A DNA stretch of 49,241 nt from a virus, in the IMG/VR virus record IMGVR_UViG_3300021963_000192, positions 1 to 49,241 of that record, one strand, 5' to 3'. Position 1 is the stretch's first letter. The number at the start of each line of letters is the position of its first letter. Positions 6,383 to 37,745 of the stretch are shown piece after piece. The position numbers and the translations under genes are program-made. The notes under the pieces were generated by a model. That model ran no database searches. It was not told the DNA's origin and saw only the letters and a list, made by a program, of their open reading frames with translations.

Positions 6383-6428
6383 CACATTTTTTGCTTATCT
6401 TTTTCTTAATGGAAAACAGATGAGTTTC

Positions 6429-6436
6429 TATTTATA
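6429..6436 (+). promoter_or_regulatory. TATTTATA motif 6 nt before a start codon
   Basis: Exact TATTTATA in the 60-nt spacer before the ATG at 6443. If it acts as a -10 box, transcription would begin at or near the A of the ATG, giving a leaderless mRNA. Inferred from position and recurrence. Confidence 0.4.
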
Positions 6437-6442
6437 GTTAAT

Positions 6443-9400
6443 ATGATTCAGAAGCACAGAATTAATACCCAATTACAGACGGATAAAAAGGTTGTTGTTG
6501 AACTTAAACAGGATTATGACCTATTAGAGATCCTTTCCTTAAAGTTCACACAGCAAGACGCTTATACATCTTTATGTGCTGATTATGGGGTTGTTTGCGG
6601 TAGAATTACAGTAAACAATGGCTTAGGTGTTCCAAACGCTAGGGTATCCATATTAGTACCCTTAACTGATACAGATGAGTTAGATCCGGTTGTATCTGCA
6701 TTATATCCATACAAATTATCAAACGATAAAAACACAGACGGATACCGTTACAATTTATTACCGTCTAGAAAACAACATGGAGGACACACCCCAACGGGTA
6801 CATTTTTCGATCAAACAGAGATATTAAGTAGAGAAGAATACCTTGAGGTATTTGAAAAATATTACAGATATACAGTTAAAACCAATTCTTCTGGTGATTT
6901 TATGATTTGGGGTGTTCCATTAGGTGAACAACAATTACATGTTGATGTTGATTTATCAGATATGGGTTGTTTTTCACTAAGACCTTTTGATTTCATAAGA
7001 CAAGGTGAAGATGAGAATAAATTCGATAGATTTTTTAAATTTAAATCAGATACAGATTTAGATGGTTTACCACAAATAGTTTCGTTTAATCAAACTGTTG
7101 ATATTGCACCATTTTGGGGTAATGTTGATTTGTGCCAAATTGGTATAACAAGAACAGACTTTGATTTATCTAATTATGGAATTAAAGTTGACCCAGTATC
7201 GTTAGTGTTAGTTTCAACAGTTACAGATTCAAATGATGATGCGGTAAAAAGAAGTGGTGTTATCAGAAGAAAAAGTGGATACAAATGTAACCTACAAACT
7301 AGCGACGGTAAGATTGAGGGTGTTAGATTTACAGGTAAAAAAGTTAAAGCATCTGATGGTGTTACACTATATCCAGAATTAGAATATTTTAGTCCAGGTA
7401 TTATTGAAGATGACGGTGCATCTATGGCTGTCGTTCAAATGAATCTTGATTATATGTATACCAATGAGTTTGGTGAACAAGAAATAACAAATGACCCTAA
7501 TAAAGGTATTGCAACATCTGCTATTTCAAGATTCAAAATGTCATTAAGTGATTCTTCAGAAGGTGGAACAAAAGGAACAACATCCGCGGTATATCTAGTA
7601 CCCAATATCAGGGAGTTCAATAAATATTCTGGTGGTGGTGCAAGTGAATATAGTGAAGCAATATTATCATCATATGTATTTTCTAATGTATTTGAGGATT
7701 ATATTAAATTAGCTGTACCAACCGGTGTTACTTTAGAATCATTAACAACAGCAGAAAGAAATCATAAAAAAGATTTAATTCTAGGCACAAATAATAATAA
7801 CATACCAGAAGATTATTTTTATAAATTTATCTATGGTAAAGTATATACACCATCTTCTTTCCAGGGTTCACATTATGAAGTTTCATCAATTGAAAGTTTA
7901 TTTGGGCTAACAAGGAGAGATGCTTTTTTAGGTATAAAAGAAATTAGACCAAACGTTGAGGATGATTGTACCGGAACAGCAAATTATTTACCAACAAACT
8001 TTGCTTTTAGAAACAGAGCAAAATTTGCATTATTAGTTTCACAAGTATTATTGTTTTTACAATTTATTACTGCGTTAATATTTAATTTTGTTTTTGAATT
8101 GTTAGGAAGATTCTTCATGACAGTTGGTAAAGCATTATATGCAATATATTTTGGTTGGCCATTTAACTGGAGGCCATTTGCTAAGATTGGTGAACAATTC
8201 CAAGATATTGCACATAAGTTACAAGTTACTGGATCACAAACATTATCATTAACAACATATCCAGATTGTGAAGAATGTACAACAGATGATGAAGCCGCAA
8301 CATTAGGCGCTTCGTTATCTAGTACTTATTGTTCTATTGGTGAAATTACATTAAAAGTTATTGGTGTCGGAGCTGGCAATTCTAGAGTGTATGTTCTACC
8401 ATACTCATTCAACATGAGCACAAACGAAAACACATCAAAAGTTACTTCCGGAGCTAGAGCGAGGGATTATGATGCAACAGATCCGTTCATGAGTGGAAAC
8501 ACATTTACATTAACTGGAAGCACTAATTCAGCAACAAGAACAATTTTAAACAGCTTACATACATATACAATTACACCGATAGCTGGTGACCCAAATACTT
8601 CTAGATTTGTTGCTGAAGCAGTATCAACAGTTGATGATACAATATTACCATATTCTTCAGCGAGCGGTGACACATTAACAAAATCAGTTTCGTTAAGTGA
8701 TTTTACAGCATCGTTTAGTACCAATCCTGCGGCAGGAGATATTATACAATTTTCACAAATCACAATAGACCAAGGTAGTTTAGATTCTTGGGCAACAGGT
8801 GATGGTAATTATGGAGTAACATATGTAACTAATTTAGTAAATGTTGTTGGCCAATATTCAACTAGGATTATTGATGGTTTAATTTTAAATCATGCTAGTT
8901 GGGCTGAACTTTCTGGTTTTAACTACGAAGGTTATAGTGGAGGTAAAAACGGCGCTGGTAATTATGCGGATAGAGGTACCTACGTTACATTTAGAATATA
9001 TGATAGAACTAAACCAAAAATTGATCCAAACAGTGTTGCCACCGGATACAATATTGAAGAAGGTTGTTTAAAATATGATAAAGCATATGACGAAACAATT
9101 TCTCAAGCTTATATTTGGTCAACTGGTAACACGTATGGTGATAGATATATACCATTAAATCCACCATCATATCCTGCGGGTTATGTTGAAGCAGTAACTA
9201 AACCAGGGTCAACGTATACAATATTGGCTGATGTTATTGGTTCTAGCGGTGCTGGTCGTTTACCTAGATTAAGAATTTGGTCAAAACTTGGTAACGTATA
9301 TTATGATAGAAAAACAAAATCTGGATATTCTGAAATTAGAGACGGTGTAATGACCGTTATTCCTGTTGTTGAAGGTGGTTCTAAAAACGCTAATTTAATA

Positions 9401-13316: not shown

Positions 13317-14771
13317 ATGAAAAAGTTAAAATACGAAATTTTAAGAAAAAATATTTTAAGTGTATCGTTAATATCATTAACCAGTAAGAATTGGAAAGAT
13401 GAGAAAAACAATATTATACCTTGGACTGGCACCACATATATTGGGCCAGCTGTTAGTGATGTTGTATATAATACAAACGAAACATTACCATTAATTAAGG
13501 GATATTATAAATGGAATGGAACGACTTGGGGTTTTTTGGGTGTAGATAAAAGTGCGCGTGTTACAACATTTAATGTAACGAATAATGGTAGTGGAAATTA
13601 CTTAATAAATGGAAATTCAAACCCAACACTATCTTTAGTTAAAGGAGAAACATACACATTTAATATAAATGCGAGTGGGCATCCATTTTGGATTAAAACG
13701 GCTAGCAGTATAGGTACAAGTAACCAATATAATTCAGGCGTTACAAATAACGGAACAAGTAATGGTGTGATAACTTTTGTGGTACCACAAAATGCCCCAT
13801 CTACATTATATTATAATTGTCAGTTTCACATTAGTATGGCTGGCCAAATCAACGTTACAGAATCTCCATATCCAAATTATAACCTACTAATTAATTTAGA
13901 TGCAAAAGCTGATGAAATGGGAGTAATGGTTGGATTTGATGGTGATATTGAACAAACTGAACAACTTTGTAATTTTGTTTATTCAGCAAATACCGGAAAC
14001 ACCTTAACAGTATACAATTCGGCTAGCAATATAAAACTAAAAAGAATTGTTGATGCAACATTCACAATTAATTGGGGTGATGGTTCACCAGTACAGCCGA
14101 TAGACATTTTAAGTGGGTTAACAAAGACTTACTCAACATCTGGGGTAAAGAGTGTATCAATAAAAATGGTGGCACCATGGAAGACTGAGACGATCACAAA
14201 AGACATCAAATTACCATTAACCACTAACACACCAACAGATTTAGCAGCATTTACATATACCGGCTCAACATTACCATATTTTAATACCTCGGATGATTAT
14301 TTACAATCTGGTAGAACACAAAATTATAGTAACATATATGATTATTCTGGAAATACTTTTACTGGAACCACAACATTTTTAGCTCTGGGAAAAAGTAGAA
14401 AAATTGAAAAAAAATTATATGGTGGTAACACATATAGTGGTGTAACAGGAACAACAGTAACTATTGAGGGTTCGGTGTTTAATTGTGATAAATACATAAT
14501 CGATGACTTAACATATCTTGATTTATCTGATGGAACAACGTATATTACTGGTAATACTTCAACATTTACATCAGAAACTCAATTCACAAAAAAATTAACT
14601 AGAAATGAACATTATCTTGGTTTTATTTCAGAACCTGTTGTTTATTCTGACATTTTTGTTGAGAGAGGAAAAATGGGAGTATCTGAATTTAACTTAAGAT
14701 TAGGTGAAATAGATAATATAGGAGAATTAGATATCTATGGAAATGGATTTTTCTTGGTGAAAAAACAATAA
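13317..14771 (+). CDS. Virion protein with a cupredoxin-like domain and a PKD-like domain
   Basis: The 484-residue protein has at least two recognisable modules. Residues ~83-182 form a cupredoxin-like beta-sandwich: LVKGETYTFNINASGHPFWI followed by YYNCQFHISMAGQINV. A complete type-1 copper ligand set is present: H122, C168, H171 and M174, with C-x2-H-x2-M spacing. Residues ~230-285 contain a PKD-like pattern, INWGDGSPVQP followed by a strand ending YSTSGVKSVSIKM. The first ~80 residues contain a short segment (LPLIKGYYKWNGTTWGFLG) resembling a tail 'WNG.tW' motif. The C-terminal part is beta-rich and unrecognised. Cupredoxin-like domains are known in some marine phage structural proteins, but copper binding here is only inferred. 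The gene is packed between other structural genes, which argues for a tail or fibre component rather than an enzyme. Confidence 0.66.
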   Translation: MKKLKYEILRKNILSVSLISLTSKNWKDEKNNIIPWTGTTYIGPAVSDVVYNTNETLPLIKGYYKWNGTTWGFLGVDKSARVTTFNVTNNGSGNYLINGNSNPTLSLVKGETYTFNINASGHPFWIKTASSIGTSNQYNSGVTNNGTSNGVITFVVPQNAPSTLYYNCQFHISMAGQINVTESPYPNYNLLINLDAKADEMGVMVGFDGDIEQTEQLCNFVYSANTGNTLTVYNSASNIKLKRIVDATFTINWGDGSPVQPIDILSGLTKTYSTSGVKSVSIKMVAPWKTETITKDIKLPLTTNTPTDLAAFTYTGSTLPYFNTSDDYLQSGRTQNYSNIYDYSGNTFTGTTTFLALGKSRKIEKKLYGGNTYSGVTGTTVTIEGSVFNCDKYIIDDLTYLDLSDGTTYITGNTSTFTSETQFTKKLTRNEHYLGFISEPVVYSDIFVERGKMGVSEFNLRLGEIDNIGELDIYGNGFFLVKKQ

Positions 14772-14795: not shown

Positions 14796-15710
14796 ATGGC
14801 AGTAGGAAGTTACGGAACAATAAGACCAGCAGATGTATCCCCAGAAGATGTAGAAATCATACTTCATTATGTGGAAAATAGAGCATCAACAACAGAACCG
14901 ACACTAACAAAGTTGGATTCATCTGATATTCTGACCCCGGTTTTTCATAATTCAGAAACGGGAGGAACATCCGATACCGAAATTTTAGGCGGTTTATATA
15001 ATCTTAGACTAAATAGTGACACATTTAGTGACTTAGGTATCTACACTTTACACCTTAGACCAAAACAAATTAGAACGGAAATTACTGATTGTGGTGTTTT
15101 AGCATCACTACCATCTGTTAGAGGATTGGTTATTGATTTAGGTAATGTTGGTACAGACGATAGAAACAAGTTTGTTCCACAAGGTCTTGTTGGTTATAGA
15201 ATAGAATATATTGACAAGTCAAATTCACAAAAAGTTCCTAATTTTTACAGAGTAGTGACTTCATCATTTTATTGTGAACCAGTTACAACAAATTTAACAA
15301 ATAGTACCCAAAAAGCGATTAGATATAGATATTCAGATGCGCCAACCAATTTAGTGTTCTTAACACTTACACCGTCTTCTGCACCTAGCAATAGACCAAA
15401 TGTAACACCATTTATTGGGGAACCATCACAAAATATTATTTTAACCAACAGTTATTTTAACCCAACTACCGTTGAGGTTGAAATGGTTGAGCATGATGCA
15501 TCAACACTTGCACACGCACTTTATGGTAATCAAAGTAAGGCGTTAAATTCTGGTATTTACACAATTTATGACAAGAACAATAATAACGCGATTTATAAAC
15601 AGTTCAATCTTTATGAGGTTAAAGATGATCTTAACGAAACTCTTTATGAGATTCGCGAAGAGAAAACTGATATAGACCAAACATTAAACTTTGACGATAT
15701 TACCGAATAA
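14796..15710 (+). CDS. Predicted tail/baseplate protein of unknown family (304 aa)
   Basis: The protein begins MAVGSYGTIRPADVSPEDVE, followed by a helix (IILHYVENRAST) and a beta-rich middle containing ILGGLYNLRL, SDLGIYTLHLRPKQIRT and SVRGLVIDLG. The last ~50 residues are charged and helical (YEVKDDLNETLYEIREEKTD). No signal peptide, transmembrane segment or enzyme motif is seen. A TATTTATA element lies just upstream and the stop codon overlaps the start of the 1841-residue wedge/adhesin gene by one base, so the two are translationally coupled and probably interact in the virion. The length and position suggest a wedge or fibre-attachment adaptor, but I do not recognise the family and do not assign one. 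Confidence 0.58.
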   Translation: MAVGSYGTIRPADVSPEDVEIILHYVENRASTTEPTLTKLDSSDILTPVFHNSETGGTSDTEILGGLYNLRLNSDTFSDLGIYTLHLRPKQIRTEITDCGVLASLPSVRGLVIDLGNVGTDDRNKFVPQGLVGYRIEYIDKSNSQKVPNFYRVVTSSFYCEPVTTNLTNSTQKAIRYRYSDAPTNLVFLTLTPSSAPSNRPNVTPFIGEPSQNIILTNSYFNPTTVEVEMVEHDASTLAHALYGNQSKALNSGIYTIYDKNNNNAIYKQFNLYEVKDDLNETLYEIREEKTDIDQTLNFDDITE

Positions 15711-18700
15711 TGGCAACAAGAAAAGTACCAAGTCAGGCTGCTAGTGGTTTCGAAACTTTTAGCGACAGTATTGTTGGAAGACAAATTACTGACGGTACTA
15801 GTCAATTAACTAACTCAAACTTTGCTTTAGATAGGGTCATCCCTGAAAAAGACACAAAGAGCTTTAAAACAGCACCATTTTCTGATTTTCTTACCTTAGA
15901 GGATCTTAAGATAGAAAATGATGTCCCAACAACAGTCAGACAATCTAATGGAGAAAAGAGACCAATAAGATTTAATTCAGACAAAACAGAAGGATCTAAA
16001 TCACTATTTGGTTCACTAAGAGAAAGAATTAGAGTTTCAGTTGGTAGAATTCTTAAAAATTATCCAGCTGCAATTTATGTCAATTCTGAAGGTTTATCAT
16101 CTACTTCAGATTATTCTGCTGAAAATATTGTTTATAATCCAACAACAGATAAAACAACATTTAATATTAAGTCAAGTAAATTCTTTAACCCATTTGATAT
16201 AGTTTTATCTGAACCGGTTGCAAACGATTTACTTTCAGTAGATAATGAAATTAGAAATCTATTTTCATCATACAACAAATATAGTATCGCCATTGGTGAT
16301 AAAACATATAACATATCAAAATATACAGAACCAACATCTAATAATGTTGTTTCATTGGAAGTTTATGGAAAGCCATTTACTGGTTCAACATATTCAACAA
16401 GTTATATAATTAGACCAAACAATTCTATTGTTGAAGAATTTTATCTTGGTTTGGACGACTTAGAACAAACATTATTAAATAGAGAAACATTTCCTATATT
16501 TCAAGCGTCGTTTAAAGTTCCTAGAACTAGTTTAGACGAAACAAAAACAGATTTAATTTATGTTTTAGTAGAATGGCCTGTTTCGAAAGATGGATGGAAC
16601 CCACAAACCACCGGTTTAAAATTTGATGAATATATAACTAAGTTAAACGACTTAGCAACAGAAATTGATGAATATAAATCAAATTTAGTTACCAGGTTTT
16701 TAGTTGCACCACAATTATTTGAATTTGACACCGAAGACCAAAAGATTGATAAAATATTTCAACTTTATGGCCAAAGCTTTGATAAAGTAAAATCGTTTAT
16801 TGATAACATTGCATACATGAGAAATGTGTCATATGACTCAATAAGCAATATCCCGGATGTTTTTCTTAAAAATCTTGCTAATACATTAGGTTTAAATACT
16901 ATTAATTTATTTGATCAAAAAACATTAGAAGAACAAATATATAATTCTTCTAAATCAGTTTACAATGGATCATCTATCGGTAAAAACTTGGTAGATGGTG
17001 AGTTAGAATTTTACAGAAGACTATTAGTTAATCTAGCATTTATATATAAGTCAAAAGGAACAAGAAGTAGTATTGAGTTTTTCTTAAAATTCATTGGTGC
17101 TCCAGATCCGATGATTAAAATCAATGAGTATGTTTATAATGTAAAAACTGCAATTTCTAAAACCTCGACAGAAGATGATATTTTTAATGTCATTAATAAT
17201 GTTGCGGTAAATAATAATGTAACGTTTAATTCAACAACATACACATATAGCTTACGTGCAATAACCGGAATGACAACATTCAGTAATACTACTGATTATC
17301 CAATCGATACTGACACATTTTTACCAAAAACCCCAACAACAAATCAGGATAATATATTTTTCCAAATGGGGTCTGGATGGCATAATGTTAGTTTAGATCA
17401 TAGATCTTCGGACATTATAGATACAGATAACTCTAGTGGTACATTTGTTGACGGTGATTTCATATTAACAGGTAGAACAAAAACAATTAAAACAAAATCA
17501 AAACCATATTCTTATGGTGAAGAATTTTTTGACATATATAGAACATTCCCAGGATTAGATTATGGTTACACATTAGAAAGTAAAATAGATAATGTCAAAA
17601 GCCAAGTTGTTGATGATTTAACAAGTACCGGTTTAATTCTAAACAGAAAAAATATCAGTGTGTTTGTTAGCCCAGCTAACGCGAGCAATTATGATATATG
17701 GAGAAAGTCTAGAGAATTAGAAGTGGTATTTGGAAAGAATAGTTTAGAAGTACAAAGTGACGTAAGCTTTGCTGAATATCTTGAAAATACTTTCTCAAAA
17801 CAGGTAGTTATCTCAAACTTAGTAAAATATAAGAAAAATTATATTCATCTAGAAGATGTGTATCAAGATTATATTAATCAATTGACATCTTCTGGGTACA
17901 CACCATATGACATGGTTGATTCAACAGATTTTGTTAATCAAATGAGTCCATATTGGTCAAATGTTTTAGAACAAATTATACCATCAACAACATTATGGAT
18001 GGGCGGTAATTTAATAGAAAACAATATTTTTGCTAGACCAAAGTTTTCATATAGAAAACCTTGTAAACCAATTGAAATAGTTGAGAATTTATATCCAGAT
18101 TTTGAAACCTTTATTGAAGAGGACTTAGAAACAATTGTTGGTGAACCGGACCACCTTAGAGGTTTAATGTACCTTACTGGTGTGACGTTCACATTAAAGA
18201 TGGATATTGACGGTATTGAATATAGTGGAACAACATCACAAGTTAAAATAACTGGTAGCACGTTATTTGATACTGGATATACCGCAACAAACAGCTGCAG
18301 TGTATTAACAAGTTCATCAACTAGTATCCCATTAATTTGTGATTATAAAAATTGGGTTAAATTAAATGTTTCAACAACAAAAACACTTTGGAAAAACGCG
18401 GTAATTGCTTTAGTTGATAAAATAAATTCAACATACAATGATCCAGTTGCTGGCCATTTACCAACCGAATCACCATATAGTGGTGTAACTTACGGTTGTG
18501 GTGCTAATTGCTCTGGTTATACACAATTAGTATCTTATGAATTTTTCACAGATAATGATGGTGTTGAAAAAGTTAAGTTTATTGCACATAGTAATTCAGG
18601 CTGTTTAGAAAAAAGATATTTAGATTTTTATTTTGACGCCGATTATCAATACTCACTACCTAAGTGTAGTTTAGATTTAGAATTTACAACTGTTTGCCCT

Positions 18701-21235
18701 GACGGTGTTTTATACCCAGTTTATACAGGATCAACAGAATGTAAATTAAAATCAGATATTATTGTTAATATTACTGGTGCAACTGTTCAATCTGGTGAAA
18801 CGTATGGTTGGGGAATTTACGTACAAAGAAATTCAATTCCAATTATAAATGCGTATGGTGGATATAGTTCAACATATACTGACACAACATTTGCACAGGT
18901 TAGTGGAAATACATGTCAGTTTAAAATATCAAATGTGTACGAAGATGAAATAATAGATTTATTATTCACTGACGCAGCCAATTGTGATAAAAAAGTGAGA
19001 ATTGATGGATTAAATTTACAATATGTTGAATTCCCAACAGAAACCCCAGATCAACCAATAGTTGTTAATACTGGTTTTACTATACATCCTAGAGTTCAAT
19101 ATAGAAATTCATACAACTATGGATTAAAGCATGATACAAAAGTTTTAGTACTAAGTGGTGCAACAATCAATAGCTCAACAACTCCAGCTAATATTCAAAG
19201 TTATATTACTGCAGGAACTTTAGTTAAAAAAGACGTTAAAGATATTGTGTCTGGAAATACAATTGTTTCTGCAACATATCTTCCATGTTCAACATTATCA
19301 AGTGGTGCATTTGAAGCCGCAGAATTAAGTAATAATTATTCCTTCTCATATTCATACACAACATATACAGTATCTAGAATTGATTCTTTAGGTTCAGTTA
19401 AAACTAGTGTTATTAGTGGAAGGACAGTTAGCGGAACAACAGTTGTTTTTGAAGTACTACCAACAAGTAAATTTAGAGTTTATACAAACAAAGAGGTTGA
19501 TGAAACTGATGGTAATATAACAAAAAGAAGTGGCTATGTATTTGATACTAGATCACCAGAATTCTTACAAATAAAACCCGAAACACCAATAGAGCCATGT
19601 TGTAATTATCCATCAGATTATTATGATACTGGTGATTATATTATAACAGAGAAAGGTGAACTAATTGAAGTAATTGCTGTTGACTTAAATTACTGTAATA
19701 TTAATATGTATTATAACATAAATGTTACAGGTAGTTTACCAACAAATTTAATTACATTTAATGGTAATTCAAATTACTTAGCATTACTTGAACATGAATA
19801 CATTGGATTTGAAATAGTTAGTTCATCAATGCAACAATATTATACTAATGAGTATTGTACAACAGTACCATCAATCGCATCACTAGAAAGAAATTATTCA
19901 AACGTAATTACTGGTTCTCCAGCATATACATGCGTTGGATCATACCCAATAATAACACCACAACCAACACCAACACAAACACCAACACAAACACCAACAT
20001 CTACACCAACACCAACACCTAGTTCAACTGCGACGCCAACTCCGACACCAACCGCAACGCCGATTCCGCCAACAGCAACACCAACTAGCACACCAACACC
20101 GACACCAACAGCAACACCTGCTGATGACTTCTGTGTTGATATTGTATTCACAGGTGCAACAGCAACACCGACAGCAACTGCTATTGTACCAACTGCAACA
20201 CCAACCCCGACATCAACAACGATTGCGTCAACACCTACACCAACGGCAACAGCTATTGCCCCAACACCAACTAGTACCCCTACTTGTATGTGTATTAGAT
20301 TAACAAATACAACAAACGACGATTTGTATATAACACTTACTCCTTGCGGTGGAAGCCCAATCTCTCAACTTGTTCCAAACGTTAATCTAACAAATGGAAT
20401 TAATGTAGTAACAGAATGTGTAGTAACAGGTTCGGTTGAAGGACCTGTTCCAGGAATTACAGTAGTCTATTGTTCAGATATTTCTTGTGATGAGGAAGAT
20501 GATTGTGGCACTTGCGGTTCAACGTCAACACCAACACCAACACCAACGGCAACAGCTATCGCCCCAACACCAACAGCAACAGCTATTGCTCCAACACCAA
20601 CACCAACAGCAACCCAATCATTTAATACAACCTGGTTCTACACTAATGGAAGGATATGTGAAAATAATATCTATTGGTTGAATAACACACCACAAGAAGT
20701 TGCAGATTATATAAATCATGTACTGATAAGTCCTAATTCAAGTTATGGTGGGTCACAATATGCATATCCATCATCTCAAACATTAGGTGTTGGAACAGAA
20801 ATATATAGTGGAAATATTACATACAATTTCTGTAGCTCATGTAATTTTACGGCGGTACAAACAGATTTTCCAGGAAATATAGACCGAAATGTATCTAACA
20901 TAATTAAGGTTGTTAATGGTATAGTAACTGAATTCACCCCATTAACTTCATATACATTTAACGCAATTTCATGTCCTGTTACAATTTATAATATTAGTAC
21001 TGGACAAACCAATCCATCGACAGAAGGTTGCACAGAATTGTCTGGTCCATATCCATATACAGCATATGGTAACAACTCAGATTGGACCGCAGTAACTAGA
21101 TTCTATTCTGAAGCCAGTATGTCAGTACCATATTATGGACAAAATAAATATTATGGTAGCAACGACCCATCAAGTTCCGGAACAGAATTAAAAATAGATA
21201 ATAATGGTAATGTTACAGACTCATACGCGTGTTAA
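15710..21235 (+). CDS. Giant baseplate protein: P2 gpI-like wedge region fused to Pro-Thr-linked distal domains
   Basis: The protein is 1841 residues long. Residues ~350-470 resemble the P2 gpI-type tail protein: a helical stretch LFQLYGQSFDKVKSFID, then VFLKNLANTLGL, then FIYKSKGTRSSIEFFLKFIG, whose 'KGT..aIE..l...G' is the hallmark. Further on, YWSNVLEQIIPSTTLWMGG matches a motif of wedge proteins in very large phages. From ~residue 1415 the character changes: three tracts of TPTPT/TATPT linkers (~1415-1475, ~1483-1523, ~1603-1638) separate small Cys-containing domains such as one beginning CMCIRLTNTTNDDLY. The C terminus ends DNNGNVTDSYAC, resembling the terminal domains of the proteins ending at 28042 and 31249. 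The layout suggests a baseplate-anchored base with flexible distal receptor-contact domains. The N-terminal assignment is moderate; the adhesin role is inferred. Confidence 0.72.
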   Translation: MATRKVPSQAASGFETFSDSIVGRQITDGTSQLTNSNFALDRVIPEKDTKSFKTAPFSDFLTLEDLKIENDVPTTVRQSNGEKRPIRFNSDKTEGSKSLFGSLRERIRVSVGRILKNYPAAIYVNSEGLSSTSDYSAENIVYNPTTDKTTFNIKSSKFFNPFDIVLSEPVANDLLSVDNEIRNLFSSYNKYSIAIGDKTYNISKYTEPTSNNVVSLEVYGKPFTGSTYSTSYIIRPNNSIVEEFYLGLDDLEQTLLNRETFPIFQASFKVPRTSLDETKTDLIYVLVEWPVSKDGWNPQTTGLKFDEYITKLNDLATEIDEYKSNLVTRFLVAPQLFEFDTEDQKIDKIFQLYGQSFDKVKSFIDNIAYMRNVSYDSISNIPDVFLKNLANTLGLNTINLFDQKTLEEQIYNSSKSVYNGSSIGKNLVDGELEFYRRLLVNLAFIYKSKGTRSSIEFFLKFIGAPDPMIKINEYVYNVKTAISKTSTEDDIFNVINNVAVNNNVTFNSTTYTYSLRAITGMTTFSNTTDYPIDTDTFLPKTPTTNQDNIFFQMGSGWHNVSLDHRSSDIIDTDNSSGTFVDGDFILTGRTKTIKTKSKPYSYGEEFFDIYRTFPGLDYGYTLESKIDNVKSQVVDDLTSTGLILNRKNISVFVSPANASNYDIWRKSRELEVVFGKNSLEVQSDVSFAEYLENTFSKQVVISNLVKYKKNYIHLEDVYQDYINQLTSSGYTPYDMVDSTDFVNQMSPYWSNVLEQIIPSTTLWMGGNLIENNIFARPKFSYRKPCKPIEIVENLYPDFETFIEEDLETIVGEPDHLRGLMYLTGVTFTLKMDIDGIEYSGTTSQVKITGSTLFDTGYTATNSCSVLTSSSTSIPLICDYKNWVKLNVSTTKTLWKNAVIALVDKINSTYNDPVAGHLPTESPYSGVTYGCGANCSGYTQLVSYEFFTDNDGVEKVKFIAHSNSGCLEKRYLDFYFDADYQYSLPKCSLDLEFTTVCPDGVLYPVYTGSTECKLKSDIIVNITGATVQSGETYGWGIYVQRNSIPIINAYGGYSSTYTDTTFAQVSGNTCQFKISNVYEDEIIDLLFTDAANCDKKVRIDGLNLQYVEFPTETPDQPIVVNTGFTIHPRVQYRNSYNYGLKHDTKVLVLSGATINSSTTPANIQSYITAGTLVKKDVKDIVSGNTIVSATYLPCSTLSSGAFEAAELSNNYSFSYSYTTYTVSRIDSLGSVKTSVISGRTVSGTTVVFEVLPTSKFRVYTNKEVDETDGNITKRSGYVFDTRSPEFLQIKPETPIEPCCNYPSDYYDTGDYIITEKGELIEVIAVDLNYCNINMYYNINVTGSLPTNLITFNGNSNYLALLEHEYIGFEIVSSSMQQYYTNEYCTTVPSIASLERNYSNVITGSPAYTCVGSYPIITPQPTPTQTPTQTPTSTPTPTPSSTATPTPTPTATPIPPTATPTSTPTPTPTATPADDFCVDIVFTGATATPTATAIVPTATPTPTSTTIASTPTPTATAIAPTPTSTPTCMCIRLTNTTNDDLYITLTPCGGSPISQLVPNVNLTNGINVVTECVVTGSVEGPVPGITVVYCSDISCDEEDDCGTCGSTSTPTPTPTATAIAPTPTATAIAPTPTPTATQSFNTTWFYTNGRICENNIYWLNNTPQEVADYINHVLISPNSSYGGSQYAYPSSQTLGVGTEIYSGNITYNFCSSCNFTAVQTDFPGNIDRNVSNIIKVVNGIVTEFTPLTSYTFNAISCPVTIYNISTGQTNPSTEGCTELSGPYPYTAYGNNSDWTAVTRFYSEASMSVPYYGQNKYYGSNDPSSSGTELKIDNNGNVTDSYAC
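19960..20285 (+). repeat. Pro-Thr linker tracts in the giant wedge/adhesin gene
   Basis: The DNA is a degenerate CCAACA/ACACCA hexamer-like repeat encoding [14 protein letters not shown] and TATAIVPTATPT, interrupted by a short Cys domain (DDFCVDIVFTG). Long stop-free frames in the other frames and on the opposite strand (VGVGVG, QHQHQ) are by-products. Confidence 0.9.
20520..20616 (+). repeat. Third Pro-Thr linker tract of the giant wedge/adhesin gene
   Basis: The tract encodes [20 protein letters not shown] and a second ATAIAPTPTPTAT copy. The unit 'CAACAGCTAT(C/T)GC(C/T)CCAACACCAACAGCAA' is tandemly duplicated (about 20550-20600), also present near 20250. Confidence 0.85.
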
Positions 21236-21248: not shown

Positions 21249-23015
21249 ATGTTAACTACTTTTACATATAACGGACATTATAACGGAAAACCTTCATGGC
21301 AAGGTAGCCTTAGTGGCGTTACATGTAATGTAAGATGGAATGGTAGTGATTATTGGACAATAAACCCTTGGCCATATGGTGGGGAACCTAGAAATTATAC
21401 AACAACAGATCTACCAGATACTGGTTGGACAATTAATGGAACAAGTAGTGTAACATCAATAAACCTTAATTTAGGTAGTTGTCCGTTACCTCCAACACCA
21501 ACCGCCACACCAACACCGACACCAACAACTAGTCCCACACCAACTCCTAGCCCTACTCCTAGTCCAACACCTAATTGTAATTTTGGTGTGGGTGTTAATA
21601 TAGTTACAGCTACACCAACACCTACTCCTACACCAACTTCAGATTGTGCTTTTGAGGTAACCTCAAATGTTGTTACCGCAACACCAACCCCAACCCCAAC
21701 GCCAACAGAAAACTGTGAGTTTGATTTAGGTGTTAATATTATTACAGCAACACCGACTCCAACACCTAGTCCTACACCAAACTGTGATTTTGGAATGGGG
21801 GTTAATATTATTACTGCCACGCCAACTCCAACACCTAGTCCAACACCAAACTGTGATTTTGGGGTGGGTATTAATATTATTACAGCAACCCCAACTCCAA
21901 CAACGAGTCCTACACCAACGCCAAGTCCTACACCAAACTGTGATTTTGGGATGGGTGTTAATGTTATTACAGCTACACCAACTCCAACAACAAGCCCAAC
22001 ACCAACACCGACACCAACAGAAAATTGTGAATTTGGTGTGGATACCAATATTATTACAGCTACCCCGACACCGACACCAAGCCCAACACCAAGCCCAAGT
22101 CCAACGGAAACACCTACACCTACTCCAACCCCAACAGAAAATTGTGATTTTGGGATGGATATTAATGTGGTAACAGCAACCCCAACTCCAACGCCTACTC
22201 CAACACCAAGTCCAAGTCCAACAGAAACCCCAACACCTACTCCAACTCCAACAGAAAATTGTGATTTCGGAGTTGATACTAATATTATTACAGCCACACC
22301 GACTCCAACACCAAGTCCTTCACCTAGTCCTAGCCCAACACCAAGTCCTAGTCCTACACCGAGTCCTAGTCCAACTGAAACACCAACACCAACACCAACA
22401 CCAACAGAAAATTGTGATTTTGGGGTTGATACGAATATCATTACGGCCACGCCAACTCCAACGCCTAGTCCAACACCAACAACTAGTCCTACACCAACGC
22501 CAAGTCCAACACCAACAGCAACTATTGATTGTGCTTTGGATACAACTGTAACACCAGAGTTAACTGAAGTGGTTAACTGTTTGGCTAATATGGAATTTAT
22601 TGTTCAATATAGCCCAACAGTAGGCCCGTGTCCTGGTGGCCATGGTTGTAATGCTGCAACATTTTACTTAAGAGGTAATAACATTACAATCGGAACGGTT
22701 TATTTAAGTAATACTGGCGGTTCTAACGATCAATTCAACTATCCGGCTGGTGTAACAAGTGGTCCTGCTAGATATAATTCATTAACCTTAACAACGCAAC
22801 AAGCTCAAGATATTGCAGCATCGTCCACAGGTGGTAATATAAACTTTTCATTAGTATGTGCCACACCGTTAAATGTGGATTATGGTTGGGGTCTGGGTGG
22901 TTGTCACACAAATGTAACTTGGATTACAATGAAGCTTAATACAGAAACAATTTATAGTGGCTGTCCAAATAATAATTTCTTAACTATAAACCCATGTACT
23001 GGGGTAATATCATAA
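21249..23015 (+). CDS. Pro-Thr repeat adhesin-like virion protein with ten Cys minidomains
   Basis: Residues 1-80 form an aromatic-rich beta domain ([17 protein letters not shown]) ending at a Cys. Residues ~80-430 are an array of about ten units of the form N-C-(D/E/N)-F-(G/D)-(V/M)-x-x-N-I-(I/V)-T-A followed by a [10 protein letters not shown] linker of 10-40 residues. The linkers grow longer toward the C-terminal end of the array. Residues ~430-588 form a Cys-containing beta domain ([37 protein letters not shown]). One Cys per minidomain suggests intersubunit or intermodule disulphide or metal contacts, but that is speculation. The gene starts 13 nt after the giant wedge gene and ends 1 nt before a 92-residue gene. 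The tandem DNA structure makes length variation between relatives likely. Confidence 0.72.
21489..22530 (+). repeat. Tandem array of Cys minidomain plus Thr-Pro linker units
   Basis: About ten coding repeat units, each with an AA(C/T)TGTGA(T/G)TTTGG-like core followed by AT(T/C)ATTACAGC(A/T)AC and a run of CCAACACC-type codons. The best-conserved units (at about 22020, 22135, 22250 and 22400) share near-identical DNA around the ACAGAAAATTGTGA core. The same unit occurs once in the 23302 gene (about 23670-23715). Confidence 0.9.
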
Positions 23016-23016: not shown

Positions 23017-23295
23017 ATGGAAGTAATAATAACAAATAAAATTTTAACATATTCAAATGGTGGTTATACTATCGATGTAAATGATTTATTTACATTAAAT
23101 GGTATTAAAGTTATGGTTAAAGAACTATTTACTTTAAACGATGAAATGTTTATTAGCTATATAGATGATCAGGATAATGGTTTATTAATAGAAAAAGCAA
23201 ATGATTTCATTGAAAAAAATAAAAACTATTTTAATAGTGTTGTAAAATCAATAATCACAACAAATAACGAATCTGATTGTGGTTGCGGAAAATAA
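23017..23295 (+). CDS. Small protein of unknown function between adhesin genes (92 aa)
   Basis: The protein starts MEVIITNKILTYSNGGYTID 1 nt after the preceding stop, and the next start follows 6 nt after its own stop. It appears to be a small mixed alpha/beta protein: a repeated phrase DLFTLNGIKVM and ELFTLNDEMFI suggests two similar beta-hairpins, followed by a helix (LIEKANDFIEKNKNYFNSVV). It ends SDCGCGK, a Cys pair in a Gly context. No signal peptide or membrane segment is present. Its location between two Pro-Thr adhesin genes suggests a chaperone, adaptor or small virion part, but nothing in the sequence decides this. Confidence 0.6.
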   Translation: MEVIITNKILTYSNGGYTIDVNDLFTLNGIKVMVKELFTLNDEMFISYIDDQDNGLLIEKANDFIEKNKNYFNSVVKSIITTNNESDCGCGK

Positions 23296-23301: not shown

Positions 23302-26300
23302 ATGGCAAAGAAGTTTTACGTAAAGATTGTTTCTGGTAGTGACTTAGGTCCATATAATGTTTATTATGACCAAGTTAATTCGGCAAATCTTGCAACTAAT
23401 TTTGATACATCATTTCTTGCCACAGGGGTTACACTTACAGAATTAACAGTAAACTTAGGTTTACATATTAGTGTTCCAGATGAGGCCACTAAAATAATTG
23501 TATACAATACTAATGCCAGGGTTATTGCGGAGTGTCAATCAAATATTGATGAGACTATTTTACCAACACCCACTCCAACATCCTCACCAACACCAACCCC
23601 AAGTCCAACAGCAACACCAACGCCTAGCCCAACACCAAGTCCTAGTCCAACGCCAACACCGTCTCCAACACCAAACTGCGAATTTGGTGTGGATACTAAT
23701 ATTATTACAGCTACACCAACGCCGACACCAACACCAACTGAAAGTTCGACACCGACGCCAACACCAACGTCAACACCAACACCAACGCCAAGTCCAACAG
23801 CGACACCTAATTGTTTATTTTTAATTGATACAACAGTTAATTATGCGCCAACAGATATATCGTTAAGTCACAATAGAATAAATGAAAATTCTTCAATTGG
23901 AACATTAGTTGGTTATTTATCAACAACATCAGGTGATAGTAGTGATACACATATATATTCTATAGTAAATTCGGCCCCTTTTACTATTAGTACTAATGGG
24001 TTATATAGTTCAATATCATTCAACTATGAGGCAACGACTTCATATACAGTAGCAATTCGCACCACTGATAGTGTTGGGCAATATTATGATAAACAATTTA
24101 CAATTTATATTGATAATGTAAACGAAGCACCATATGGAATTCAAATTTCTGGTTCAATACCTGAGAACAGCGCCATTGGAACAACAGCTGGAACATTATC
24201 TACTTTGGATGTTGATGCTGGCGATACATTTACATATTCATTAATTAATACTGGTTCATATCCAGATAATAATAGTTTTGATTTAAGCTCTGGTGGTGTA
24301 TTAACGTCAAAAGAAGTTTTTGATCTTGAAACAAAAAGCACATATCAATTAAACGTAAGAACAACAGATTCTGGAGGTTTGACATATGATGCTATTGTAA
24401 TGGTACAAGTAACTAATGCAAACGAAGCACCAACAGGTATTGATTTATCATCGTCTTCAATATCTGAAAATGTTGCAACGGGAACAACTATTGGTACTTT
24501 TTCAACATATGATCCTGATGCTGGAGATACATTTACATATGTTTTTACCGATAATAGTTCTTATCCAGATAATGGTAGTTTTACTATTGTGGGCAATACT
24601 TTAAAATCTAAATTTGTATTTGATTACGAAACAAAAAATACATATCTTATAAGAGTTAGATCAACAGATGCTTTAGGGTTATATGTTGATGTTTCAATGT
24701 ATATTTACATAACAGATGTTGTTATAACAGCATCTAGATCTTCAACAAATGTTTCATGTAATGGAGGATCTAATGGTACAATAACAATAACCAGTCCAAG
24801 TGGTGGTTCAGGTAGTTATACATATTCAAAAAACGGGTCTACCTATCAATCAAGTAATATATTCACAGGTTTAACAGCTCAAACATATGAATTATATGTT
24901 AAAGATTCAAATAATGAAGTTGGTCAATTAACATCACTTACAATAACACAACCATCATTAATAACTTTTACTGCAAGTGGGACACCGCCAACATGTAATG
25001 GTGATTCAAATGGCTCAATAACATTATCTAGTGTTAGTGGAGGTGTCGCACCATACACATATTCAATTGATGGTTCAACATATCAAGCTGGTTTAACATT
25101 TACTGGTTTAGCAAATGGCACATATACAACATACGTTAAAGATGCTAATGGGTGTGTTAGAACAAATACAACTGGTTTAAATAGAACACAAGTAAGTGCA
25201 ACGATATCACAATCAAATGTGGCATGTTACAATGGAACAACAGGTTCAATTACAGTAAGTAATGGTAGTGGTGGTTCGGGGTCCGGTTATCAATCAAAAA
25301 TTGGTTCTGGAGGAACATACGCAAATTTACCAGTAACGTATTCTAGTTTATCTTCTGGTGCATATACAATATATGTTAAAGATAGTTCTGATTGTGTTAA
25401 TAGTTTTGGTGTAACTATAACTCAACCAGCGACTCCAGTTAGTGCTAATTCTGATACAAATATCGCACCAACTTGTTTTAACGATAGTGATGGGCAAGTA
25501 GCGTTCTTCGGTAGCGGAGGAACATCACCATACACATATTCAATTGATGGTGTTAACTATCAATCAAGTGGTACTTTTAATAATTTACCAAATGGAAACT
25601 ACACTGGCTACGTAAAAGATGCTAATGGGTGTATTGCAACAATTGCAAGAAACATTAATAGAAGTGTACCAGCAGCGTCATATAGTATTAGTAATGTTTC
25701 ATGTAATGGTGGATCAAATGGCTCAATAGCGGTGAGTAGTGGTACTGGTGGGTCAGGAACTGGTTACCAAGCAAAAAATGGCTCAGGAGGAACATACGCA
25801 AATTTACCAGTAACGTATTCTAGTTTATCTTCTGGTACATATACAATATATATTAAAGATAGTTCGGGTTGTGTTCAAACATACAATCAAACAGTAACAC
25901 AACCAAGCGCGGTATCTATATCAGTATCTGGTACAAATCCAACATGTTGGAATGGTAGTGATGGATCAGCATCGGCTTCAGGTTCTGGTGGAACGGGTGG
26001 TTATACATATTCAAAAGATGGAACAAACTATCAATCTAGCGGGACTTTTAGTAGTTTGGGTACCGGATTTTATACAATATATGTCAAAGATAGTAATGGT
26101 TGTATAACATATGATTATGTATTATTATCTAGATCCGAACCAAATGCAACAATATCAGTAAGCAACCCCGATTGTAACGCAGGAACAGGAACAATCAATG
26201 TTTCTGGTGGTTATGGTGGTTCAGGTTCAGGATATCAAGCTAAACTTGGTTCAGGTGGTACATATGCAAACTTACCAGTAAGTTATTCATCATTAGGTGG

Positions 26301-27420
26301 TGGAACATACACAATTTACATTAAAGATGGTTCAGGTTGTGTTCAAACATATTCAGCAACCGTAACTATACCATCGGCAGTATCTGGTTCTATTACTTCA
26401 GCGTCATTCCCAACTTGTTATAACTCAACAAACGGATCGTTAACAATTCAGGGTGGTGGCGGTACACCAAATGCATCGGGGTACAAATATGATATTAGTA
26501 GTAATGGCGCACCATACTCATCATTAACAACATTTAAAGCATCACACACATTTAGTAATTTAGCTAGTGGCAATCACTCTATACAAATAATTGATAATAA
26601 TAGTTGCTTTGCAATAGTCTCATACAATTTAACAGTATCAACACCAGAACTCGGATCAGTAACAGTTACCAATGTTTCATGTAATGGTGGATCAGATGGT
26701 TCTATTGCTGTTGCAACATTAAATGGTGGTTCGTCACCTAGACAAGTATCAATTGATGGTTACAATTATTATTATCCACCAAAAACATTTAGTAGTTTAG
26801 TGTCAGATACATATACACTGTATGTTAAAGATGCAAATGGTTGTGTTGCGGGATATGGTCAAGGAATAAGTCAACCAACCGCACAAACGGCGTCATTAAT
26901 AATTATTACTAACCCAACATGTTCATCTCCAAGTTCTGGAGTTTTAGAATTGTCATCATCTGGTGGAGTATTTCCTAAAACATATAGATTATATGTTGAT
27001 ACAAGTTCACCATATAATACATGTGGAGGAGATTTGGTTGGAACATATAGCACTTCCACGTATGGTACAACATTTAATGTTAGCGACTTAACATCATATG
27101 GTTATTGCCTAGAAGTTACAGATGCTAATGGTTGTGTAACAAATAGTGGAGTAACAGCCATTTCACCACCAGTAACATTCTATAGGTATGAAGTGCTAAA
27201 CTGTGGTAATTCTGGTCTTCTTCTTATGACATCTCCTGATTTATTACCAAGTCAATTCTTAGGAAAATCTGTTAAAATAGATAATATATGTTACCAAATA
27301 AATTATTTAGCAGACACCGTGTGTTCTACTGAAACACTACACTTGATTGATGGGCAATATTCAGGGATATATAATACATGTAATGATTGTACTGGAGGAG
27401 GTCCAGGACAGATACTTTAA
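23302..27420 (+). CDS. Large tail adhesin: cadherin repeats plus ten SprB-type repeats
   Basis: The 1372-residue protein is modular. Residues 1-88 form an N-terminal beta domain with [11 protein letters not shown], related to the start of the 27464 protein. Two Thr-Pro linkers (~90-125, ~139-170) flank one Cys minidomain. Three cadherin-like repeats follow (~182-272, ~274-372, ~374-472), with [20 protein letters not shown] and NEAP junctions. Ten SprB-type repeats (~473-1290) carry the pattern [10 protein letters not shown]...YTYSKDGxxYQ...FxxLxxGxYTxYVKDxNGC, ending in TQPS. The C-terminal ~80 residues form a Cys domain (CYQINYL ... YNTCNDC). SprB repeats are typical of Bacteroidota gliding adhesins, so they point to the host and to host-cell contact. 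Repeats 2-7 alternate between two subtypes, implying duplication of a two-repeat unit. A tail-fibre or adhesin role is strongly suggested, not proven. Confidence 0.82.
23564..23814 (+). repeat. Thr-Pro linker tracts with one shared Cys minidomain
   Basis: Two TPTPT/SPTPTP tracts surround [14 protein letters not shown], identical in protein to a unit in the preceding array gene at about 22027-22065. Confidence 0.88.
24958..26376 (+). repeat. Higher-order repeat of ~475 bp (paired SprB-type units) inside the adhesin gene
   Basis: SprB-type repeats starting near 24958, 25435 and 25909 share the subtype [16 protein letters not shown]...KDANGC. Those starting near 25190, 25669 and 26143 share the subtype [19 protein letters not shown]. 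The paired period is 474-479 bp. A stretch of about 50 bp is identical between about 25308-25358 and 25784-25834. Confidence 0.8.
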
Positions 27421-33436: not shown

Positions 33437-34039
33437 ATGGAAGTAAAACTTAAAAACAAGTCCAAGATCCTTGGGCTAGATATTAGCACAAAAACTATTG
33501 GGTTTGCGTTATTTGATTTGACAGGTAAAAACTTGTTAGAGTTGACGCATTTTTCTCCAAAGATTAAACCACAGCCCCAAGACAAATTAGAAGAATTACT
33601 TAAGAAAGCTGAGGCGTTTCATAAAAAATTAGAGGACTATAAGAACATGGGTATAGTTAAGGTTATTATTGAAGAACCTTTATTAAACTCAAATAACGTC
33701 TATACTGTTGGTACATTATTACGTTACAACACGATGGTGTGTAGATCAGTGTATGATATTTTTGGAATTGTTCCAACTTTTATTTCAACATACAACGCAA
33801 GAAAATTTGCATTCCCCGATCTAGTTGGCCCTAATGATAAAGGTAGAAATGTTTTATTTGGTGGCTACGCAAAAGATATAGATAAGAAACATGTGATTTG
33901 GGAACATGTAAATGCAGTGTGCCCAGATGTTAAATGGCTATATGGTAAATTAAACGTATTGAAAAAAGAAAATTATGATATGGCCGATGCCGCAACTGCA
34001 GTTATTGGTTACATTAATATGATAAAAGAAACAGAATAA
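33437..34039 (+). CDS. RuvC-like Holliday junction resolvase
   Basis: The 200-residue protein has an RNase H-fold nuclease core. The acidic residues are placed as in RuvC/poxvirus A22-type enzymes: D15 in LGLDISTKTIG, E79/E80 in VIIEEPLL, and D181/D184 in NYDMADAATAVIGY. The region between carries a nucleic-acid contact helix (NTMVCRSVYDIFGIVPTFIS). Length is close to bacterial RuvC (~170). It would cleave four-way junctions formed during recombination-dependent replication before packaging, the job of endonuclease VII (gp49) in T4. It opens the DNA-metabolism block and is followed by a small gene after 20 nt. The ATG at 33437 is preceded by an AT-rich tract, not a Shine-Dalgarno sequence. 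Confidence 0.85.
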   Translation: MEVKLKNKSKILGLDISTKTIGFALFDLTGKNLLELTHFSPKIKPQPQDKLEELLKKAEAFHKKLEDYKNMGIVKVIIEEPLLNSNNVYTVGTLLRYNTMVCRSVYDIFGIVPTFISTYNARKFAFPDLVGPNDKGRNVLFGGYAKDIDKKHVIWEHVNAVCPDVKWLYGKLNVLKKENYDMADAATAVIGYINMIKETE

Positions 34040-34059
34040 ATTTATTTAAAAAAAAGAAT

Positions 34060-34263
34060 ATGACAGAACAAAAAACATTTAGTAGAATGAAAGATGGGAA
34101 GATCGTCCTAGAAGACGTAATTTATGATAGTAGTTTTGGTAAAAGATCGATTATATTAAATCCAAAAACAGGAAACAGAATCGATTCAATTAGAATTGGT
34201 GAAACATCATATTATCCAGTTGGTCAGGTAAAGAAAAAAAATATGGCAACTAATGTTTCATAA
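34060..34263 (+). CDS. Small hypothetical protein (67 aa)
   Basis: The protein begins MTEQKTFSRMKDGKIVLEDV and has a predicted beta-hairpin pair: GKRSIILNPKTGNRIDSIRI followed by SYYPVGQVKKKN. It is basic in its second half, contains no Cys, and has no signal peptide or membrane segment. The ATG at 34060 follows an A-rich leader (AAAAAAAAGAAT), as for confirmed genes of this genome. I do not recognise the family. It lies between the resolvase and a candidate small RNA; cotranscription with the resolvase is likely from the 20-nt spacing. Confidence 0.55.
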   Translation: MTEQKTFSRMKDGKIVLEDVIYDSSFGKRSIILNPKTGNRIDSIRIGETSYYPVGQVKKKNMATNVS

Positions 34264-34279
34264 CTAAAAGAAATTTACT

Positions 34280-34287
34280 TATATTTA
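34280..34287 (+). promoter_or_regulatory. TATATTTA element in a perfect inverted repeat, candidate promoter of a small RNA
   Basis: TATATTTA lies within the palindrome TTACTTA-TATT-TAAGTAA (34275-34292). The same CTTATATTTAAG core occurs at 43864-43875. It fits the loose Bacteroidota -7 form TAnnTTTR, but no clear -33 TTG is evident. Confidence 0.35.
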
Positions 34288-34292
34288 AGTAA

Positions 34293-34366
34293 GTAGGCGG
34301 AAATGTGGTGAATAACTGCATTTTGGTTTAGTCCTCAGAGGGTGGTGTCTCTGGGGATTTTTTTTT
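34293..34366 (+). ncRNA. Candidate small RNA: two hairpins and a U-tract
   Basis: A 130-nt gene-free interval (34264-34393) holds a promoter-like TATATTTA and then two stem-loops. Hairpin 1: AAATGTGG (34301-34308) / CTGCATTT (34316-34323), 8 bp with two G-U pairs and a 7-nt loop. Hairpin 2: TCCTCAGAG (34332-34340) / CTCTGGGGA (34349-34357), 9 bp, followed by nine T residues, a textbook terminator. The local GC (GGCGG, CTCTGGGG) is well above the surroundings. No ORF fits. It may simply be a terminator with an upstream hairpin; a discrete ~74-nt transcript is inferred. Confidence 0.4.
34332..34366 (+). terminator. Rho-independent terminator before the primase gene
   Basis: A 9-bp stem with one G-U pair, an 8-nt loop and nine T residues. 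It ends transcription from the resolvase side and/or a small RNA. Confidence 0.88.
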
Positions 34367-34381
34367 GTCAAATATTTTATC

Positions 34382-34389
34382 TATATTTA
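34382..34389 (+). promoter_or_regulatory. TATATTTA element 4 nt before the primase ATG
   Basis: TTTTATCTATATTTAACCC directly precedes the ATG at 34394, right after a terminator, so a promoter is expected in this 27-nt interval. It resembles the TTTATNCTTAT elements at 43858 and 44331. Confidence 0.42.
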
Positions 34390-34393
34390 ACCC

Positions 34394-35335
34394 ATGGCAA
34401 CAATTGACACCGAATTCGAACCTATTATTGAAATCCTGGAAGATATGCTAGGGGATTACAAGCTACATAATGACCACAAAGGTCAAATATCCTTTGATTG
34501 CCCCGTGTGTTCTTATGAAATCAAGGGTTTAGATGAGGGTGACGGTAAAGGTAACTTAGAAATCAATTACAAATTAGGGGTATATAAATGCTGGTCTTGT
34601 AGTGAAACAAATAACACAAAGGGGCCTTTATATCGACTAATTAAAAAATATGGTAACAAAAAACAAATTCAGTTTTATGAATTAATGAGACCTGAAGAGG
34701 TTGATACAACACTACCTAAACCAAAGATTCTAAAGGGATTACCTAATGAATTTATATCATTTATAACGGCGTCATTAGGGTTAAAATTAACACATCATTA
34801 TAAAAAGGCATATAACTATATCAGAAGTAGGAATATAACTGATGAGATGCTAGCGAAATATAATATTGGTTTTGCATATGACGGTGAATATGCAAACAGA
34901 ATTATCATTCCATCATATGATTCTGAGAACAAATTAAATTATTTTATTGCTAGGTCATATCTACCTAGAACTAAAATGAAATATAAAAATCCTGATGTTC
35001 AAAAAGAAATCATTATCTTTAACGAACATTTAGTAAACTGGGATGAACCCATTTATTTAGTTGAAGGGGCTTTTGATAGTATTTTTGTTCCAAATTCAAT
35101 ACCCTTATTAGGTAAGGTTATGGGAGAATTTTTATATTCTAAAATATATGAAAAAGCAAAAGAATTAATAATAGTACTAGATGGTGACGCGTGGAACGAT
35201 GCAGAAAAATTATTTCATAGGTTAAACAATGGGAAACTATTTTTAAAAGTATGGGTGGTTAAAATGCCAGAAGATAAAGATATCGCTGATTTACAAGGAA
35301 ACTTTGAAAATTTAAATAAAATACAATTAGACTAA
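34394..35335 (+). CDS. DNA primase, DnaG/gp61-like with zinc motif and TOPRIM core
   Basis: The 313-residue protein has an N-terminal zinc ribbon with C36, C39 (FDCPVCSYE) and C66, C69 (YKCWSCSET). A TOPRIM domain follows, with the catalytic Glu in YLVEGAFDSIF (about E224) and the metal-binding DGDAWND near residues 263-267. Together these mark a DnaG-type primase that makes RNA primers for lagging-strand synthesis, working with the gp41-like helicase whose end lies at the window start. The middle part (FITASLGLKLTHHYKKAYNY) corresponds to the region linking zinc and catalytic domains; IGFAYDGEYANRIIIPSYD matches the DnaG 'iGf....g.y..Riifpi.d' motif. The protein is compact, like T4 gp61 (342 residues). 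The next gene begins 1 nt after its stop. Confidence 0.92.
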   Translation: MATIDTEFEPIIEILEDMLGDYKLHNDHKGQISFDCPVCSYEIKGLDEGDGKGNLEINYKLGVYKCWSCSETNNTKGPLYRLIKKYGNKKQIQFYELMRPEEVDTTLPKPKILKGLPNEFISFITASLGLKLTHHYKKAYNYIRSRNITDEMLAKYNIGFAYDGEYANRIIIPSYDSENKLNYFIARSYLPRTKMKYKNPDVQKEIIIFNEHLVNWDEPIYLVEGAFDSIFVPNSIPLLGKVMGEFLYSKIYEKAKELIIVLDGDAWNDAEKLFHRLNNGKLFLKVWVVKMPEDKDIADLQGNFENLNKIQLD

Positions 35336-35336
35336 C

Positions 35337-37382: not shown

Positions 37383-37393
37383 AATTTAAATAT

Positions 37394-37708: not shown

Positions 37709-37745
37709 TTTTTGGTTTTTAAAAATTAAATTGTAATTTTAACTT

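Follow-up and report, generated by a model that had tools for sequence, protein, structure and literature searches.

In a protein encoded in the tail module of a virus genome, a short motif with a cysteine is repeated ten times on Thr/Ser-Pro spacers, and these spacers lengthen from the N- to the C-terminus. The record analysed, referred to here as the window, is a virus sequence of 49,241 bases. The motif, called a bead below, recurs in other phage sequences and in several genes, with a near-invariant cysteine, and the rise in spacing recurs with it. We consider it about 45% probable that such proteins serve large phages as virion tethers within the baseplate/tail-fibre module and are constructed as sticker-and-spacer polymers.

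The array protein (588 aa) is encoded on the plus strand at 21249-23015, as are all of its parts listed here. An N-terminal domain of about 80 aa (21249-21488) is 82-94% identical to its counterparts in L008, L019 and L022, and is followed by a Thr/Ser-Pro stalk (sequence 21489-21572; 30 aa by the rule used to measure stalks). The ten beads lie at 21573-21611, 21642-21680, 21711-21749, 21780-21818, 21849-21887, 21936-21974, 22023-22061, 22140-22178, 22257-22295 and 22410-22448, the last being the final canonical one, and successive cysteines are 23, 23, 23, 23, 29, 29, 39, 39 and 51 aa apart. A further Thr/Ser-Pro linker (22449-22526) leads into the C-terminal domain (22527-23012; 162 aa), which opens with a degenerate eleventh bead, D-C-A-L-D-T-T, at 22527 and is 87-88% identical to counterparts in L008, in L019 (there on another gene) and in L022+L021. 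Exact matches to [ND]C.F....N[IV][IV]TA begin at residues 109, 132, 155, 178, 201, 230, 259, 298, 337 and 388, and no match arose in 10,000 residue shuffles of the protein; an initial sequence-only reading of this DNA, which had proposed about ten cysteine units with a stereotyped core, was thus correct on this point. The main TRF rows over the array region scored 351-460. An antisense ORF of 351 aa (21395-22450, minus strand) overlaps the array, probably as a side effect of its Thr-Pro codons.

In the window the bead follows the consensus [ND]-C-x-F-x4-N-[IV]-[IV]-T-A on Thr/Ser-Pro linkers. Among 166 distinct beads, positions 1, 3, 5, 7 and 9 are hydrophobic in 100, 100, 99, 88 and 96% and positions 2, 4, 6 and 8 in 20, 2, 5 and 20%, where the Cys at position 1 was fixed by construction and F/Y/I at position 3 was imposed by the filter, which leaves positions 5-9 as informative. 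Read from the sequence, this alternation is the pattern of one amphipathic β-strand. The sequence-only reading had spoken of minidomains; a folded unit is not borne out by beads of 11-13 residues with a single-strand pattern, and a bead on its own would probably not fold. Neither for the whole protein (mean pLDDT 37.5, 6 sequences) nor for a four-bead segment (mean pLDDT 41.7, 25 sequences) did AlphaFold produce a confident structure, and its models were given no weight.

The bead detector used for the spacing analysis requires a cysteine, and the invariance of this residue was judged from a Cys-free scan and from a count of inserts. With the pattern F-x-h-x-h-x-h-h-T-[AP]-TPTP, a cysteine stood two residues ahead of the Phe in 186 of 190 distinct peptides, most of them from loci first found with Cys patterns; the four peptides lacking it all lie outside TP-rich arrays. 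The scan itself added six new stretches, none of them an array. Inserts between TP runs (158 distinct, likewise stemming from loci found with Cys patterns) have a cysteine within the first five residues in 145 cases, further in in 10 and none in 3. Two variants were seen: L049 has eight copies of a bead with a second cysteine, C-x-F-D-F-x-C-[SA]-x-[IV]-T, and L058, a contig of 335,630 bases, has four copies of a different bead, C-x-F-T-I-E-Y-T-x-L, at a constant 32-aa spacing.

Synonymous and nonsynonymous differences were compared among the beads within 15 arrays, chosen by the authors from 39. The pS was 0.46-0.73 and pN/pS 0.09-0.49, with values of 0.46 (pS), 0.20 (pN) and 0.43 (pN/pS) in the window and the lowest ratios, about 0.1 with pS about 0.7, in arrays of NCDFDIDVDVVT type. 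Since pS is high and pN/pS low, the beads are old, with their protein sequence held by selection, and by this measure they are under purifying selection in the 15 arrays tested. The sequence-only reading had pointed to DNA similarity among the units; in the window this is only modest and the likeness is kept at the protein level, so these beads are not fresh tandem copies. A recently expanded minisatellite was set aside for all 15 arrays, since their synonymous sites are far from near-identical. The other mark of a minisatellite, a change in copy number, was found: the close relatives L052 and L054, with flanks 99.94% identical over 1641 aa, have 18 and 17 beads, the extra one being unit 14 of 18, and L044 and L047 differ by gain or loss at units 1-5. 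The array is therefore expandable, as had been proposed. Along the chains of L029, L044, L047 and L052 the bead flavour tends to shift, with DLTT N-terminal, DLVT in the middle and DVVT C-terminal.

These data bear directly on the view that the region is no more than a disordered linker, its beads being functionless hydrophobic debris left by an old tandem repeat. The low-complexity surroundings and an AlphaFold confidence that is low throughout would agree with this, but it does not account for the low pN/pS in the NCDFDIDVDVVT-type arrays, for a near-absolute cysteine or for a bead conserved over divergent phages and several genes, and we give it hardly any credence.

IMG/VR was searched with degenerate DNA patterns for a bead followed by TPTP. 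As the bead pattern was progressively relaxed, 15, 22 and 59 stretches were found, and joining of adjacent pieces left 52 sequences including the window; the core is thus present in 51 further phage sequences and is not peculiar to this genome. One of them, L007, has an identical 588-aa protein, and several others are near-duplicates of one another. By the strict detector, 46 of the 52 sequences have an ORF with two or more beads; the six outside it, read separately, have at least two in L026, L042, L046, L049 and L062 and one in L030, giving a total of 51 of 52. Among the loci read, a single array holds up to 22 beads. A scan of 84,980 bacterial and archaeal genomes yielded nothing with the strict pattern; the relaxed one picked out two lone bead-like matches, both leading into TPTP, with no TP linker ahead of them and no array. 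A bacterial origin of the array was rejected on these grounds.

Several types of gene carry the array. The 588-aa type is found in the window, L008 and L022, a 629-aa protein in L004, and further array-bearing types in L017/L018, L034 and L055. In L019 the N- and C-terminal domains of the window's protein are on two separate genes, each with its own array (2838-3857 and 5105-6514; a 404-aa ORF lies in between). This arrangement suggests that the arrays join interchangeable domains, and points to domain exchange by way of the arrays.

Variation in linker length had also been claimed by the sequence-only reading. The lengths do vary, but they are ordered, rising from the N- to the C-terminus; this order, the presence of the same array in several genes and the strictness of the cysteine had escaped that reading. 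Over 19 beads the spacing in L029 goes from 23-29 to 67 aa, in L055 it goes from 19-20 to 63, and in L034 it is 45, 65, 75, 85. Kendall's tau was positive in 37 of the 39 arrays with at least four beads, negative in none, and undefined, owing to constant spacing, in 2. Near-duplicates among the 39 are window/L007, L004/L011/L013, L010/L017, L012/L015, L034/L037/L039 and L052/L054, with L032 and L043/L050 also close; once eight such loci were dropped, 29 of 31 arrays rose and 2 were constant. The same eight were excluded from the array comparisons of second-gene beads, neighbour likeness and slope. With arrays clustered by flank identity, the largest array per cluster rose in 7 of 7 clusters at 25%, 9 of 9 at 50% and 16 of 17 at 80% (one constant), and none of 20,000 permutations reached the observed sum at any of the three levels; these clusters do share domains, L019 having the window's N-domain and L004, L017 and L051 having one in common. 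Groups without shared flanking domains number about four by the authors' count, all of them rising and too few for a strong sign test. Four arrays that had escaped the detector because their linker words differ served as a check (L042, L046, L049 and L062; spacings 45, 55, 79; 85, 121; 37, 43, 43, 37, 63, 73, 73; and 45, 45, 45). Three rise, one is constant and none falls, although L046, with two spacings only, is maybe incomplete.

The gradient is not obligatory, since the arrays of L018, L058 and L062 are constant and those of L010, L012, L015, L017 and L051 owe their classification as rising to a single long linker, after which the spacing returns to 23 aa (for example 23, 23, 23, 23, 61, 23). 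Slopes in arrays of at least seven beads range from 0 to 8.3 aa per bead. In ten of the arrays (L008, L022, L027, L029, L031, L044, L047, L052, L056 and the window) growth is near-linear, at 1.4-3.8 aa per bead with R2 of 0.80-0.94. Such regularity would be expected if the beads of one chain lay side by side as a parallel β-stack, each spacer returning along the strand, since later spacers would have to span the stack already formed and would be longer for that reason. The commonest spacing, 23 aa (93 of 309, with only 6 shorter), leaves by our arithmetic, after 11 strand residues, a spacer of 12, roughly what is required to run back along the strand. Against this explanation stand the constant arrays and the slopes of 7-8 aa per bead in L014 and L020, and we regard it as very unlikely.

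The gradient could also be a mutational by-product or an inherited accident, arising from polar duplication together with 6-bp slippage in the TP codons, the bead being selected and the spacing not. Spacings are odd in 278 cases and even in 31 and so differ mostly by dipeptide steps, and bead number changes between close relatives. Likeness between adjacent beads increases slightly in the C-terminal direction (tau negative in 15 of 22 arrays, positive in 6 and zero in 1, with a mean of -0.15), as expected from C-terminal growth. Since the clusters share N-domains, the gradient may have been inherited in common across them, and once domains shared across clusters are discounted the number of unrelated groups falls to the four or so given above. 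Several observations argue the other way. No array among the 39 falls, and the direction is the same in arrays with quite different linker words. The bead gains and losses described above are not limited to one end. Synonymous sites in the beads are strongly diverged, and the order thus seems to have outlived many slippage steps. Spacers made up of 6-bp steps are likely to change quickly; in L029 and L044, whose flanks are 95% identical, many linkers have been reshuffled and both retain the order. Of 31 arrays, 26 have a leading stalk that exceeds in length the linker between beads 1 and 2, so that shortness of the early linkers is a property of inter-bead linkers, and this disfavours a simple 5′-to-3′ slippage bias. 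An age gradient, with old beads bearing long linkers, was also considered; the weak trend in likeness points the opposite way. A mutational or inherited origin is on balance rather doubtful, and we lean, though tentatively, towards selection as the cause of the gradient.

The array gene sits inside a tail/baseplate gene cluster. Upstream of it, on the plus strand, are a baseplate wedge subunit (4550-6382; phrog_219, 7.2e-15, and phrog_6, 1.7e-14) and a baseplate wedge/tail fibre connector-like protein (13317-14771; phrog_677, 1.2e-25). Related baseplate wedges in the phage records, 26-28% identical, are from Flavobacterium phages immuto, Microcystis phage Mel-JY01 and an uncultured 484-kb phage (LR756508), and stretches of 32-42 kb read from three of these records held no bead array. 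Just upstream of the array gene is a giant ORF (15710-21235, plus strand; 1841 aa), whose TP-rich tail is without a canonical bead; its first 1400 aa have counterparts of 29-67% identity in 22 bead-bearing ORFs, and relatives whose homologue of the giant protein carries beads include L014, L020, L027, L029, L044, L047, L051 and L052. The annotated phage collection (50,697 records) was queried with proteins by tblastn with the low-complexity filter on, and neither the 588-aa protein at E 0.01 nor the giant protein at E 1e-5 had a match. The genes flanking the tail module (534-3970 and 33437-40082) encode ribonucleotide reductase subunits, a RuvC-like resolvase, a primase, an exonuclease and SbcCD-like proteins.

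Downstream of the array gene is an adhesin-like ORF (23302-27420, plus strand; 1372 aa) made up of an N-domain, a TP stalk, one bead, and cadherin and SprB repeats (Pfam: SprB 7.8e-40, Cadherin 6.1e-21). Its single canonical bead, at 23674-23712, lies between TP stalks, and tblastn with this protein gave partial-length matches in 30 of the 50,697 phage records. N-domains akin to that of the adhesin-like protein, with one bead, recur 3′ of the array gene in L004, L016, L019, L021, L029 and L044. Between the array gene and the adhesin-like ORF is a small ORF of 92 aa (23017-23295) ending in CGCGK.

Beads on a second gene of the same phage are relevant to the idea of a docking ladder, in which beads would be linear β-strand motifs to which a separate partner binds through its edge strand. 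The partner could be a phage hub, a chaperone, a decoration protein or a host protein, about ten copies being recruited much as in LC8-client arrays or cellulosomal scaffolds, and bead-bearing adhesins elsewhere in the phage would share the partner. A short conserved strand motif within a low-complexity chain is what docking would lead one to expect. Moreover, 18 of 43 second-gene beads matched the main array of their own phage best among 34 arrays, at the protein level rather than through fresh DNA copying, since third-codon-position identity is just 0.23-0.63 across all 43; a few of these are chance Cys segments, and several genuine beads have low ranks. Such matching of flavours is, however, also explicable by inheritance, and docking does not itself predict graded spacing. 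No co-conserved partner was found, the one candidate examined being the 92-aa neighbour. This protein was matched in 2 of the 6 array phages searched and also seen in L019, all close relatives of the window, and was set aside as a bead-binding partner. A docking function seems unlikely.

Comparison with known families gave few matches. The 588-aa protein has no Pfam family at E 0.1, its N- and C-terminal domains have none in Pfam or NCBIfam at E 0.01, and searches of the PDB by sequence with the array profile and with the two domains returned chance-level matches only (E 0.33 or worse). One weak PHROG match, to phrog_15511 of unknown function (residues 348-582, E 1.1e-5), overlaps low-complexity sequence and was set aside as an identification. 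The statement of the sequence-only reading that it knew of no described protein arranged in just this way is therefore supported over these databases, and no description of the bead array was recognised in the open-licence literature, judged from titles and abstract openings.

Partial likenesses do exist. Thr/Ser-Pro-rich linkers and hinges are known from cellulases and from IgA1. There, as here, low-complexity TP/SP spacers connect functional parts, whereas the phage spacer bears a recurring conserved Cys strand and has ordered lengths. In silks and other block copolymers strand-forming blocks alternate with flexible ones, as they would in the phage array, but the phage stickers are single acidic/aliphatic strands with one cysteine and not Ala/Gly crystals. 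LC8-client arrays carry short strand motifs along a disordered chain and are read by multivalency. The phage array repeats a motif with a strand pattern in a chain that may be disordered, judging from its TP composition; it differs in its motif, its near-invariant cysteine, its graded spacing, its occurrence in virus sequences only among the collections searched here and the lack of a hub (one candidate examined). Multivalent LC8-client arrays are treated in PMC12017986 and PMC12187134. With T4-like baseplate and tail-fibre proteins (phrog_219, phrog_6, phrog_677) the array protein has a gene neighbourhood in common, but it matches none of them in sequence, nor any other known fibre or baseplate family in Pfam, NCBIfam or PHROG. 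SprB/cadherin adhesins (PF13573, PF00028) are represented by the repeats beside the one bead of the 1372-aa neighbour, while the 588-aa protein has no SprB or cadherin repeat above the curated cut-off (0 Pfam families). The array would fall within a known class, that of phage tail-region repeat tethers; for the ordered spacing we know of no precedent.

Phage fibres are usually homo-oligomers, as a rule trimers, and the tether we propose would be a homo-oligomer as well. Each bead would form one amphipathic β-strand, with Cys, Phe and branched aliphatic residues on one face and Asp, Asn and Gly on the other; its most likely complement is the equivalent bead of adjacent chains. The invariant cysteine, on the buried face, could be a packed core residue or could form a disulphide after release, and the Thr/Ser-Pro spacers would act as stiff rods. 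Identical chains would hold their beads in register at any spacer length, and spacers would for this reason be free to vary where beads are not. With the chain anchored in the virion at its N-terminus, beads would be dense at the base and sparse towards the tip, giving a tapered tether with a cross-linked, stiff base and the C-terminal domain on a loose tip. Full extension, taken as 0.31 nm per residue, would give a length of about 90 nm for the window's tether and of about 240-250 nm for those of L027 and L029. It is possible, if speculative, that the spacing itself is selected, the protein being a chirped polymer with β-strand stickers at steadily growing distances. Identical chains anchored next to one another could then zip up in no other way than in register, starting at the base, or could form a flared net with a mesh that opens as the radius grows. 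If so, graded spacers would be a general way to make a tapered, self-registering molecular tether.

Thr-Pro low-complexity stretches in phages are easily dismissed as linkers. Here they have a grammar, consisting of a near-invariant Cys strand and ordered spacers, and the order recurs in phages whose linkers use different words. A functional order would amount to a rule for designing protein tethers that taper or find their own register, and a mutational one would show that a protein repeat array can grow in a polar way. In both cases the array provides a sequence signature of a tail module in which neither the array protein nor its giant neighbour is matched by tblastn in the annotated phage records.
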